Assembly: GCA_022496185.1 (NCBI GenBank)
Contig: WTXG01000559.1
Span: 1-13,577 of the forward strand
DNA: 13,577 nt
Direction of reading: 5' to 3'
DNA from: Multifurca ochricompacta
Lineage: Eukaryota; Basidiomycota; Agaricomycetes; Russulales; Russulaceae
Shown: positions 193 to 12,738 of the stretch, piece by piece
Layout: every line of letters begins with the position of its first letter
How positions within the stretch are numbered: the first letter of the stretch is position 1
Position numbers and translations under genes: made by a program
Notes under the pieces: model-generated
What the model was told of the DNA's origin: nothing
The model's database searches: none
Seen by the model: the letters and a program-made list of their open reading frames with translations, nothing else

Positions 193-205
193 GTTCTTTA
201 CTTGC

Positions 206-427
206 TGTTGAGGTTTCAGCACCCTGATCGAGGGACATTCAATCTCAGGAAAAGTATAGCCATGTTGGGGATTGAACCCAAGACCCCCAGACATTCTAGG
301 TCCAGTGCTCTAACCACTGAGCTACATGGCCTTGGGAACTTCAAGGTGGTTTCTGTGTGTTATGCCTAGCCATAACCAGTCCACCCATGTACATGTGCCA
401 TTACTAGGCTTCAGGCACTTCTCAACA
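206..427 (-). repeat. 3' LTR of the TRIM (element orientation)
   Basis: This is the 222-bp partner of the LTR at 525-746, with the same TGTTGAG/CTCAACA ends and the same tRNA-like module (258-331). It lies directly after the G-rich PPT-like tract and is followed by the CTTGC duplication at 201-205. Confidence 0.9.
258..331 (-). tRNA. tRNA-like sequence inside the TRIM 3' LTR
   Basis: This is the second copy of the module, 74 nt, identical to the one at 577-649 except for one extra G in the variable region (5 nt instead of 4). Acceptor, D and T stems are complete and the B box lies at 269-278. Because both copies sit at the same place in the two LTRs, the tRNA-like segment belongs to the element and is not a neighbouring host gene. 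A genome tRNA scan would probably flag it as a pseudo-tRNA or undetermined type because of the odd anticodon arm. Confidence 0.7.
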
Positions 428-438
428 TGCCCCCTGCA
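428..438 (-). promoter_or_regulatory. Polypurine tract of the TRIM
   Basis: The minus strand reads GCAGGGGGCA directly before the TGTTGAG of the 3' LTR. It is short and not wholly purine, but its position is exactly that expected for plus-strand priming. Confidence 0.6.
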
Positions 439-510
439 TGGAAGGATCTAGACCCACCAGATCTTCACATGCATATGACTCATACAATTCCTGGATTAGT
501 CATGAACGAG

Positions 511-524
511 AAGTCCTGCTACCA
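511..524 (-). promoter_or_regulatory. Primer-binding site of the TRIM
   Basis: The minus strand reads TGGTAGCAGGACTT immediately after the LTR end (no gap). The first nine bases are complementary to a tRNA 3' end CTGCTACCA, the form found in many eukaryotic initiator-Met tRNAs. Initiator Met is a common primer for LTR elements. Which tRNA of this fungus matches the remaining bases cannot be judged from this window. Confidence 0.75.
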
Positions 525-746
525 TGTTGAGGTTTCAGCACCCCGATCGAGGGACATTCAATCTCAGGAAAAGTATAGCCATGTTGGGGATTGAACCCAA
601 GACCCCAGACATTCTAGGTCCAGTGCTCTAACCACTGAGCTACATGGCCTTGGGAACTTCAAGGTGGTTTCTGTGTGTTATGCCCTAGCCATAACCAGTC
701 CACCCATGTACATGTGCCATTACTAGGCTTCAGGCACTTCTCAACA
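525..746 (-). repeat. 5' LTR of the TRIM (element orientation)
   Basis: This 222-bp LTR starts with TGTTGAG when read from 746 downward and ends CTCAACA at 525. It contains the tRNA-like module at 577-649, about 97 nt from its start, and a TTTT run just after the module that could act as a weak Pol III stop. Relative to the other LTR it has CCCCG for CCCTG near 544, one C fewer in the tRNA variable region and one C more near 683. Confidence 0.9.
577..649 (-). tRNA. tRNA-like sequence inside the TRIM 5' LTR
   Basis: Read on the minus strand, the segment folds as a near-canonical cloverleaf. The acceptor stem is GGCCATG/CATGGCT (7 pairs, one G-U), the D stem GCTC/GAGC, and the T stem TTGGG/CCCAA with loop TTCAATC. 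The A box (TAGCTCAGTGG) and B box (GGTTCAATCC) fit Pol III consensus. The anticodon arm is abnormal: it needs a 6-bp stem CTGGAC/GTCTGG with two wobble pairs and loop CTAGAAT. That loop would give anticodon AGA (Ser), yet no long serine variable arm is present. The variable region is 4 nt. I therefore call it tRNA-derived and probably not an aminoacylated tRNA. It may work as an internal Pol III promoter of the retroelement. Confidence 0.7.
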
Positions 747-751
747 CTTGC

Positions 752-3345: not shown

Positions 3346-4789
3346 TGCGGGAAGCCGCAGAGAGCCGCGTAGTATATTGGGTGTACCGAAGTGTCTTTTG
3401 TCCCTCGCCCAGGGTCTTGTCCGGGTCATATATTCCAATCCAAGCTAGGAAGTGGGTCTTTTCTGGGTCAAACAACGTTTCCATTCCGTCTCGTACATCC
3501 AAAGAGACATCCTCGAATCGTGCGTGACGACCCAGTGTTCTGCCGCGTATCGAGACAACGGAAATTCTTGATAGTATTGGTGTCCGTGGTCTTGTCGAAT
3601 CCGAGCAGCGTGCTCAGGCATGTCTGAGCAAGCACTCTATGCGATTCTTTGGGGAGAACATGGTAGCGCCTTTCCGTCGACCCGCCAGCCGGTCTGATGT
3701 CAGGAATTCCCGCACAGAGAAGTGCGCAAACTGTACAACACGACTCTCTTCTCCTCTTCATCACGTGATGACAATGACAACCAAGCTGGAGCATGTGGAC
3801 AGTACAGTCCGTAGAGTCCGGGTTTCGCCAAGTTACGTCATGCTTTGGCATATTGACAGCGTCGAAATCGAATTCAAGCATCGTCGCAACCTCCTCGACT
3901 CGGAGTGGACGAGCAGAGAACGCAAGGCATTGGAATAGACGATGGCAAATTTCCAGTCTTTCGTCATCCTCCGTAGCGTGGCCACATATGTTTCATCCAG
4001 TGTTTTGGGAGTGATTCGAGCGTCGAATGGAAGTTCCTCGGTTGACAGCGGCGCATGTCTCCAGTTGGCAGAAAACCCATCTAAACCTAACCATGACATG
4101 AATAATGATCGCGAAATAAATAGTTGTTCTGGTTTGAAGCTTACATTCCGTTTGCCTTTTCCGAGAGCGTTTTGATCACGAGTTCCTTTCTCTCCGCCTC
4201 CCACTCACTCATCATGGGTCCGTGTTGACCGTTGAGTAGATATATTCGGAGATGTCCCGCGTTTGCCACCTTCCGCATGAAGGATACAGGACAATGCGCC
4301 AGCTTTGTAAAGGCTTTCTGAATATCTGGTTCGGGGCGGCTAGTGACGCAGATCCTTAAATTTCGGAGGCGGGGGTCGACGAGGTCTTTAATAAGTTTCA
4401 ATACTTCTTCACGTTTAGACGGCATTCCAGAGAGGGACATTCGTCGAGGGCATCAATGATGATGTACATTGGGTCCTGAACGGGTGTTACGAGCATGGCC
4501 TTCAAAGTTTCTGCAAGATCCTTCTCGTCGGGCTGCTTCTGGCCATTACCATGTTTCGAGTACAATTCAGAGACGATGGCACGGTAGGCATCTGACTGGG
4601 AACAGAGCTGCACTAAGAGAGAAGATAGTAGCCCACGGATATTTTGCTTTTCCGTGTCTCGAAAGTCGCAATAAAAGTACGCAAAGCAGGCAGATCCACC
4701 ATAGCATAGACGCTGGACATCTTCAACGATGGTGGAACTGATCATTCAGATGAGTGCTAATGATACCCCATAATGCTAGGCAAACGTAC

Positions 4790-4814
4790 CAAAGGATGCT
4801 CTTGCCAGATCCCG
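4790..4814 (-). other. 25-nt micro-exon carrying the NACHT P-loop
   Basis: Between introns 4815-4870 (GTAGGT...GAAAG) and 4738-4789 (GTACGT...GATCAG) lies a 25-nt exon. Joined to its neighbours it gives G-N-A-G-S-G-K-S-I-L-C-S-T with both phases correct (2 nt in, 2 nt out). The catalytic Walker A lysine and serine are in this micro-exon. Phase agreement across both introns supports the gene model despite the frameshifts elsewhere. Confidence 0.75.
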
Positions 4815-5952
4815 CTTTCAAGAAAAGACCGTCAGAAACAAAAAGCACGCAAGTAGTGCAGTCAACCTACCATTCCCATTTAACCACAGAAGCGAACCCT
4901 TCGATTTCCATTCCTTGAATGTTTTGCCTTTAACGAACCACTTGGCGGTTCCCTCATGGTAAAGTTTCCGCGCAATGTTGTGATTTTTAGATGGGTCAGG
5001 AGGTGACAGCCATGTCCGAATGTCCTTGTTCATCTGATCATCTGCAAATAATGTCTTAGCTGCCCTGTCTATAATGTTACTGCGAAAGGGATGACGAACA
5101 CATCATCTTGTTCACGGTACCAAATGTGTGCGCCGCTACGGTGAGAGACTCTTCCTGGGTCAATTTGTCCAACCTCTGAACGGCGTCCTGGACCTCATTA
5201 TCCCCTAACAGCATCCGTCCATACGCCCCTGCTAAATATTTAATCGCGGGAACATTAAAACGGTAGTTCACTCACGGATTCGTCCTTGTTGGATCTGTTT
5301 CGTTGCCAGAGCGAGGATGGTGAGCAGTTCCGCCATCGTCTTGACGAGGATCTCGACCATGGACTCGGTAAAGGGGGTCTCAGGGGAAGTGTAAATCTTG
5401 AGGCGGATGAGAAAACCTTGCATGGATTCAAAGAGGTTGAGTAGAGAATCGTAATCATCACTGATCTTTTTTGATGCCTTGGAATGAAGGTGAGATAACC
5501 AGTTGGAAGCAATGGAGGGAGACACGGACAGAGAGAAGGACATCAACAGCAGAAAATATGGCCTGTGCGGGTGGAAACACCTGAAAAAGAACATGTTGTA
5601 AGCCGGTCAATGCGAATGGGCCAGACCAATTAGGACTCACGGAACCAATGCCATTTACGAGTGGTGCGCAGTTCGTGAGGGCGAGGAGTATATTCACTGT
5701 TGGTTTAAGTCCCCTTAGAAGCTGCGTCTTGCGATTGCCGTTCCGAAATATGCTAAACCGAGAAGATCTTCCTTGAAGTACGTCGATCACGGCGTCCGCG
5801 TTGTCACATCCTTTCAGCTTGTCGACAAGCTGGTGTTCGGACAGATTTATGCCTGTGTTGGCAAGATACTGATCCAGGGCAGCATCTAGGATGAGCTTGA
5901 AATGAGAAGAGGAGGCAGTTGTGCGAATGTGTGTACGAGGAGCTGAAGACAT

Positions 5953-11239: not shown

Positions 11240-12738
11240 GTGGCTTCCAGCCGCAGTCAGACCCTCTTCCGAGAAGAGCTCATCGAACGCAGAGACGAGA
11301 ATAATCTTTCACAGCAAGTACTTGGCTCTGCCGCCTGGAAAGACTTTGAATCCGAGTTTGGATACTACGTCTATCACGACGGAAGATACCAACCGGTAGA
11401 ATACGACGAAGAAAAAAGAGTTTGGTATTGTATCCAATACTCGGACAGTTGAAACTCTTGGGTTACAACCAGACCTGCCCCACCTGAATTTGGACTAGGC
11501 CCGTGGAGAGAAAACCCTCCGGCCATTGTCACGGACTCCGAACCAGAGGAGTACATAGAAGAACCTAGCGAAGAAGCACTGGTATTAGCGTCGTCTACAG
11601 CCCCAGTTGCACCCGAAGTTGTCACGTTCAGAGCCCCTGCTTTGACAACTCCCCAGATCTCTATACAATCCACCAACACCGTCACCCCGCTTTACCAAAA
11701 CATGTCCACCATTGCCGCCCAGCTTCCAGACCCTGCCCCACCAGCCCCAGTGGCAGCACCACCAAACATTCCCCCCCCGTCCGGACGATTGTCAGGAGTG
11801 CTTCCCCAAACGTTCACTGGGGACCGCTCACAGAGCAAAAAATTCATGTTGGAGTTCACAACCTTTAAAAACTTCAACCATGACATCCCACAGATTGTCA
11901 ATCCATTTCAACAAGCCAATCTGTTCCTTTCCCTGATTCGGGGGGATGCGGTTGACGACTGGACCATGGAACAGCTGGAGTGGCTGAATGAACAAGTCGA
12001 AAGTGGGTGTCGTACCACTAGTGAAGGTCTTTGGGAGACCATCGCTGAGCGGTTTAAAGATGCCTTCACGGATGGGCAGGCCAAGCAGAAGGCAGCCCGC
12101 GAATTAAAGTCCCTTAGAATGGAGAAGGGAGAACTTGACGCATACGTCGCCAAGTTCAGAAGTCTAGCCAACAGGGCCGGCTATGACACGGACGAAGAGG
12201 CAACGTTAGACCTCTTTTCACAGGGTTTGCCCAACCCCCTGGTCAAGAACATCATTCAGTTTCATCACCCCCACAACTGGGACACCTGGGTTGACGCTGC
12301 TCGAAGACAGCAACAAGACTACCTTGACTTCCAGACAAGGTTTGGAGTTGACACCAAAAAAGGAAAAACCTGAGACCAGTGGAAGGCAGCGTTCGGAGTG
12401 AAGCCCGCGCCACATGGCCAGAGGGATCCAAACGCTATGGATACCTCTGCAGACTGAGCCCGAGCTCGGGCAGCACTTACGGAAGACGAGCGGCAGACAC
12501 TAATGAAAGAAGGGCGCTGCTTCTGTTGCAGAGCATTGGGACATATGTCCCGAGACTGTCCCAAGAAGGGAGCACGAGTTGCTGTCGCCACGGTGGCACC
12601 AGAACACCCCGTTCAGAACAACCCCCCACCGTGGACAAACGGTCGAAAGAAGAAAAAGCTCAGGACATATGGGCCAACATGATGAAGGAGAGTGAGGAAG
12701 TGCGCACCATATTAGTAGAAAAAGCGTTTGCGAAGAAG
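11240..12738 (+). pseudogene. gag: Ty3/gypsy Gag (capsid and zinc knuckle), disrupted
   Basis: Gag forms the retroelement particle and binds its RNA. The frame starts at 11240, seven bases after the PBS, with GTG GCT TCC where ATG GCT TCC is expected, suggesting a lost start codon. It stays in one frame to about 12650, broken only by TGA at 11450-11452, 12371-12373 and 12455-12457. Residues from about 11800 to 12330 form a retrotransposon capsid domain (LSLIRGDAVDDW, LWETIAERFKDAF, AYVAKFRSLANRAGYDTDE, LDLFSQGLPNPLVKNII). A CCHC knuckle, CFCCRALGHMSRDC, is coded at 12518-12559. Near 12650, in an A-rich run, the coding moves to the next frame (EKAQDIWANMMKESEEV), which ends with TAG at 12748. 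The shift may be a mutation. Confidence 0.88.

Follow-up and report, generated by a model that had tools for sequence, protein, structure and literature searches.

A Helenus-type TRIM in the fungus Multifurca ochricompacta with a tRNA-like gene, a likely internal Pol III promoter, and an exact T4 run in each LTR

Introduction

The closest described systems are the Helenus elements, TRIMs with a tRNA-derived sequence in their LTRs (TRIMp3), which have been reported in fungi, three Agaricomycetes among them (Kojima 2024, PMC10886601). Mobilisation of fungal Helenus by Copia is that paper's inference from a shared PBS region, and its main text makes no statement on terminators or TATA boxes of Helenus, the word "terminator" occurring in it once, on Cassandra (PMC10886601). 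Regarding termination by Pol III, the enzyme of S. pombe reads beyond runs of two to four T (PMC4982682), and in S. cerevisiae T4 causes very little pausing, becomes moderately efficient with nearby RNA structure, and occurs as first terminator, rarely (PMC9278858). A limited literature search found no publications on a leaky terminator in TRIMs and, among the papers listed, only one on elements of the Helenus type (PMC10886601).

The element analysed here lies in a window of 13,577 nucleotides, positions 1 to 13,577 of contig WTXG01000559.1 (assembly GCA_022496185.1) of Multifurca ochricompacta. The first-pass annotation of this DNA was right in proposing a mobile family of TRIMs whose LTRs each bear a tRNA-like gene, which makes them the tRNA equivalent of Cassandra, and wrong in knowing of no named fungal family of the kind, Helenus having been reported from Agaricomycetes (Kojima 2024, PMC10886601). 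The family of the window unit (A) and two sister families of the same genome (B and C) are filed as Helenus-type TRIMs, since that paper describes the anatomical features found here (PMC10886601), the filing being by anatomy rather than by comparison of consensus sequences.

Results

The unit at window positions 206-746 reads as a non-coding LTR-interior-LTR element of 541 bp with LTRs of 222 bp and an interior of 97 bp (Table 1), which confirms the earlier description of an LTR unit with CTTGC duplications, PBS and PPT and no coding capacity. It reads on the minus strand, with the 5' LTR at 746-525, the 3' LTR at 427-206 and the tRNA-like genes in sense orientation. The two LTRs (206-427 and 525-746) are 98.7% identical across 223 aligned columns, the differences being one substitution and two 1-nt indels, and the ORF list of the window holds no ORF of at least 100 aa overlapping the unit. 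Joined at one CTTGC, the flanks align over 160/160 nt with locus L077 at 96% identity and with L091 at 94%, and further paralogues (L012, L053 and others) align similarly across 155-160 nt. Insertion is thus proven, because these paralogous empty sites carry a single CTTGC.

Table 1. Coordinates of the element and its parts in the window
Feature	Position	Strand	Basis
Target-site duplication CTTGC (left)	201..205	.	Sequence; single CTTGC at paralogous empty sites, e.g. L077:2699-2858
3' LTR, 222 bp, TG...CA	206..427	-	Sequence and LTR alignment
Sense-strand T4 run, 3 nt behind 3'-LTR tRNA-like part; proposed Pol III stop	250..253	-	Sequence
3'-LTR tRNA-like module, cloverleaf, anticodon AGA	257..331 (75 nt)	-	ARAGORN, Rfam
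Boxes in 3'-LTR module	A 324-314, B 278-272	-	Worked out from sequence
Polypurine tract GCAGGGGGCA, adjoining 3' LTR on its upstream side	428..437	-	Sequence
Non-coding interior, 97 bp	428..524	-	Second copy at G000:C368:170534-170630
PBS TGGTAGCAGGAC, directly after 5' LTR	513..524	-	11/12 complementary to host initiator tRNA-Met 3' end
5' LTR, 222 bp	525..746	-	Sequence and LTR alignment
T4 run behind 5'-LTR tRNA-like part; proposed leaky terminator	569..572	-	Sequence
5'-LTR tRNA-like module; proposed Pol III promoter and R region	576..649 (74 nt)	-	ARAGORN, Rfam
Boxes in 5'-LTR module	A 642-632 (TAGCTCAGTGG), B 597-591 (GGTTCAA)	-	Sequence
Target-site duplication CTTGC (right)	747..751	.	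Sequence; empty sites

The element went into a dispersed repeat, to which two tandem 188-nt units (755-942 and 953-1140, 77% identical) belong and which also adjoins several other TRIM copies (L077, L028, L012, L091). Elsewhere in the window, pieces of a fungal STAND/NLR-type gene lie on the minus strand at 4398-5952 (NPHP3_N, E 9.5e-22; Goodbye, E 2.9e-6) and a Ty3-type gag fragment on the plus strand at 11642-12373 (Retrotrans_gag, E 2.9e-10).

The LTR of the window unit has at least 42 matches in its own 53.8-Mb genome (40 of 217 candidates scored), copy counts being lower bounds throughout, and 39 further stretches were fetched for inspection. The two findings that the first-pass annotation had named against a mobile family, a single copy or LTRs devoid of the module, are not borne out, and the fetched copies lacking the module in whole or in part are truncated or broken ones. 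The family A interior has two genomic occurrences (2/2 candidates), the window and a full copy on contig C368 whose two LTRs are identical. As that annotation had expected of a mobile family, the copies have different 5-bp duplications, each its own, at 11/11 non-redundant family A solo LTRs with both ends intact and at both full copies. Taking all families, target-site duplications (TSDs) were found at 26/28 solo LTRs (A 11/11, B 13/15, C 2/2) in a survey of LTRs with both exact end motifs, the solo-LTR counts leaving out six B and two C LTRs that adjoin a PBS or PPT junction (excluded by visual inspection) and the TSD counts leaving out the duplicate sites L020, L029 and L082. Among full copies they stand at 12/13; the 13th is cut off where its fetched sequence ends, and the four bases that can be read there agree. 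Family A is mobile, and in the three families taken together some copies have identical LTRs and are likely recent.

Families B and C were uncovered by a search with a related module (at least 40 matches; 40 of 155 candidates scored) together with the LTR-PBS junction pattern CAACATGGTAGCAG, which has 19 matches in the genome, its reversed control having 0. All 19 lie within TRIM copies (A 2, B 10 and C 7, as assigned from their loci). The 11 full B and C copies examined have 222-bp LTRs, interiors of 79-91 bp, full lengths of 523-535 bp and a tRNA-like part in both LTRs, and on the PPT side a GGGG-rich tract ends the interior, as in A. LTRs of B and C are 81% alike along their whole length, and A has in common with them mainly the module and, weakly, the part downstream of it (0/500 shuffles reach the score). 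The module is the most conserved part of the LTR: for the pairs A-B, A-C and B-C respectively, identity is 0.85, 0.86 and 0.95 in the module, 0.54, 0.48 and 0.73 in the upstream part of the LTR and 0.53, 0.57 and 0.78 in the downstream part; the A-C upstream likeness is at shuffled level (63/500 shuffles reach it) and that of A-B is marginal (4/500).

Intact LTRs measure 222-224 bp in all three families in spite of flanks of different length around the module, whose start is at 98 in A, 80 in B and 78 in C. Within single elements of family B (L092, L101-L104, L106), 32/33 differences between the two LTRs are C/T or G/A, many of them at CpG, as deamination of methylated repeats would give. Another repeat, its termini similar to TGTTGACACAGGATGTGTCTGG or TGTTGAACACRGGA, appears to adjoin or interrupt the LTRs of L040, L126, L024, L032 and L107 (by eye), as nested mobile elements.

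Both window modules were called on the minus strand by ARAGORN, as tRNA-Ser, and matched Rfam RF00005, whose cut-off is 29 bits, with 53.1 (E 3e-9) and 54.5 bits (E 1.2e-9). With such E values they are not chance matches, and the cloverleaf that had been drawn in each LTR is borne out by both programs, at 75 and 74 nt. Plus-strand Rfam matches to Plastid-ycf2 were rejected, being below the family cut-off and antisense to the tRNA match, and no Rfam match to 5S rRNA was obtained in the window up to E = 1. Box A TAGCTCAGTGG and box B GGTTCAA are present in A, B and C, read in one copy of each.

Behind the module, exactly T4 stands within 20 nt in 81/86 full modules and T5 or longer in 0/86, a set from which L083 and L084 (host tRNA-Ile) and five partial modules were left out, as also from the module alignment. 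The other 5/86 modules sit in LTRs broken right there (L028, L033, L034, L045 and one LTR of L105). On the sense strand, 13/13 full copies examined have exactly two T4 runs and no longer run, each standing 3-4 nt behind a tRNA-like part. The two-T4 pattern arises in 1.9, 2.1 and 3.5% of shuffles of the non-module parts for A, B and C, whose T4 runs are not three independent cases because the families are related. Host tRNA genes, on the other hand, mostly carry longer runs: T5 or more follows within 20 nt in 24/29 and within 45 nt in 28/29, and only T4 within 20 nt in 5/29, in a sample of the best-scoring genes that includes L090 and L091. The latter are near-identical AT-rich tRNA matches on contigs (C22 and C79, respectively) that look mitochondrial by eye, and they are perhaps nuclear copies. 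This T4 pattern, with two runs in every full copy and T5 or more behind most host genes, seems to be what is new here.

The PBS was compared with a host gene on contig C24, located with a pattern for the 3' half of initiator tRNA-Met. ARAGORN labels this gene tRNA-His; by its anticodon loop, the intron behind that loop and the pair A1-U72, we read it as the initiator tRNA-Met. The gene ends in GTGCTGCTA, and the complement of its 3' end with CCA is TGGTAGCAGCAC, which the PBS of B and C matches at 12/12 positions and that of A at 11/12. Because the PBS fits the host initiator tRNA-Met, the module as primer is unsupported, and so is the earlier suggestion of tRNA mimicry for priming; Kojima 2024 likewise saw no complementarity between Helenus modules and their own PBS (PMC10886601).

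Searches for an autonomous partner with the LTR-PBS junction, the family C interior and a family A 15-mer gave only TRIMs; they used exact patterns, by which a partner with another LTR end would be missed. A site on contig C279 with a single mismatch was rejected as partner, having no recognisable LTR structure by eye. Copia is present in the genome with at least 150 RVT_2 matches (150/150 scored; 1159 candidates in all), and in two sampled Copia 5' regions no stretch of at least 9 nt matches the initiator tRNA-Met complement.

Discussion

The unit is best described as a Helenus-type TRIM in which the tRNA-like gene of the LTR is likely an internal Pol III promoter and the T4 behind it a leaky stop. 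The proposal of the first-pass annotation that a Pol III promoter was gained stands as far as sequence signals go, namely the A and B boxes and the T4 at their 3' side. Transcription by Pol III would start at the 5'-LTR module, and part of the polymerases would stop at the T4 of this LTR and release a short tRNA-like RNA, while the remaining ones would pass the interior, in which no T run exceeds four, and terminate at the 3'-LTR T4. The read-through product would be about 400 nt long with the tRNA-like part as its terminal repeat (R). Initiator tRNA-Met would then prime cDNA at the PBS, and reverse transcriptase and integrase would be supplied by an autonomous element, likely Copia. If polymerases stop with probability p at each T4, the yield of useful RNA would be p(1-p), which peaks at p = 0.5 and would thus favour a terminator of intermediate, half strength. 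A terminator tuned to half strength by the tRNA fold plus T4, with the tRNA gene acting at once as promoter, as R region and as signal for the 3' end, is a more tentative proposal, which we regard as possible rather than probable; if true, selection for p near 0.5 would explain the exact T4 in three families versus T5-T12 in nearly all sampled host tRNA genes. Against the Pol III reading speaks that RNase P and Z should be expected to cut at an intact acceptor and T stem, to the detriment of the long RNA.

For ordinary TRIMs, transcription by Pol II is assumed (PMC10853983, PMC10886601), and the strongest competing explanation would have this enzyme transcribe the unit from a TATA-like box some 30 nt upstream of the module, with the tRNA-like part as a mere leftover or with a role in the RNA. 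Family B has TATATA 30 nt upstream of the module (LTR position 50), family C has ATATAG 32 nt upstream (position 46), and family A has CATAAC 33 nt upstream. However, TATA-like boxes at -30 assist Pol III too, and in the pairs A-C and B-C conservation is lowest in the upstream part of the LTR, while all three families retain boxes A and B. Transcription by Pol II is regarded as unlikely.

Less probable still is that the tRNA-like fold itself is kept for a role of the RNA in packaging, export, stability or strand transfer, with promoter function secondary. The cloverleaf fold is present in the modules: standard pairs fill 93.8% of its pair cells in 50 distinct modules versus 35-44% in slid controls, and the acceptor and T stems are 97-98% paired in these copies, the acceptor stem staying paired in A, B and C although it lies outside the A/B promoter. 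On the other hand, the comparison with slid controls is biased towards any structure derived from the sequences themselves, and the anticodon stem is only 83% paired. Covariation in the module is 0.135 compared with 0.139 in shuffles, 440/500 of which reach the observed value; selection on the fold is therefore unsupported, and tRNA mimicry for stability, another suggestion of the first-pass annotation, is no more than possible.

Functional host tRNA genes carried by the LTRs are very improbable. The Rfam scores of 53-55 bits lie inside the range of 46.2-69.2 bits of the non-TRIM matches listed, and the ARAGORN call as tRNA-Ser would suit such genes, but of the 29 host genes in the comparison, tRNA-Ile(AAT) comes nearest to the module body, with 70-75% identity, in disagreement with the Ser or Ala anticodons assigned by ARAGORN. 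The modules also have a short variable arm, whereas a long one was seen in the host genes for tRNA-Ser(aga) and (cga), and U33 is absent in 27/33 distinct B and C modules (counted by eye). Least probable of all, a dimeric SINE or two tRNA pseudogenes paired by chance, which the tRNA-derived heads of SINE2 might suggest (PMC10886601), is refuted by the TG...CA ends, TSDs, solo LTRs, PBS, PPT and like interiors in independent copies.

With internal Pol III promotion and a leaky T4 as the preferred reading, the contrast in T runs bears on the question of how full-length RNA can arise from a Pol III element that has terminators in both of its LTRs. The present analysis adds three co-resident Helenus-type families together with the host's own primer tRNA. 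Such elements can swell the tRNA counts of a genome: half of the Rfam tRNA matches listed (31 of 62, from 63 of 1851 candidates scored) fall in TRIM LTRs (23 A and 8 B by hand count), and automatic tRNA counts of this genome are therefore likely inflated.

Among other known systems, SINE2 elements share a tRNA-like promoter and a short non-coding sequence with the window unit; they are without LTRs, PBS and PPT, all of which the unit has, and are moved by non-LTR retrotransposons. Ajax likewise has a Pol III promoter fragment in TRIM LTRs, yet it is an element of nemerteans, which are animals, and the fragment is of 5S rRNA (PMC10886601). Cassandra has a Pol III gene in its LTRs as promoter, with the start in one LTR and the stop in the other (PMC10886601), the gene being 5S rRNA in a plant element compared with tRNA in a fungal one here; Pol III transcripts are reported for Cassandra (PMC10886601), whereas the promoter of A, B and C is proposed from sequence. 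Helenus agrees in the tRNA-like part of each LTR, which has boxes A and B, in having a PBS, a PPT and no coding capacity, in several families per genome (here A, B and C), in a length of 311-1263 bp (here 541 bp, and 523-535 bp in B and C), in 5-bp TSDs in fungi, in box A with TRGCY and YGG and box B with GGTTC, and, in many of its families, in the disagreement between anticodon and tRNA body (PMC10886601). Families A, B and C differ from most fungal Helenus families, which prime at the anticodon loop (PMC10886601), in that they would prime at the 3' end of the tRNA.
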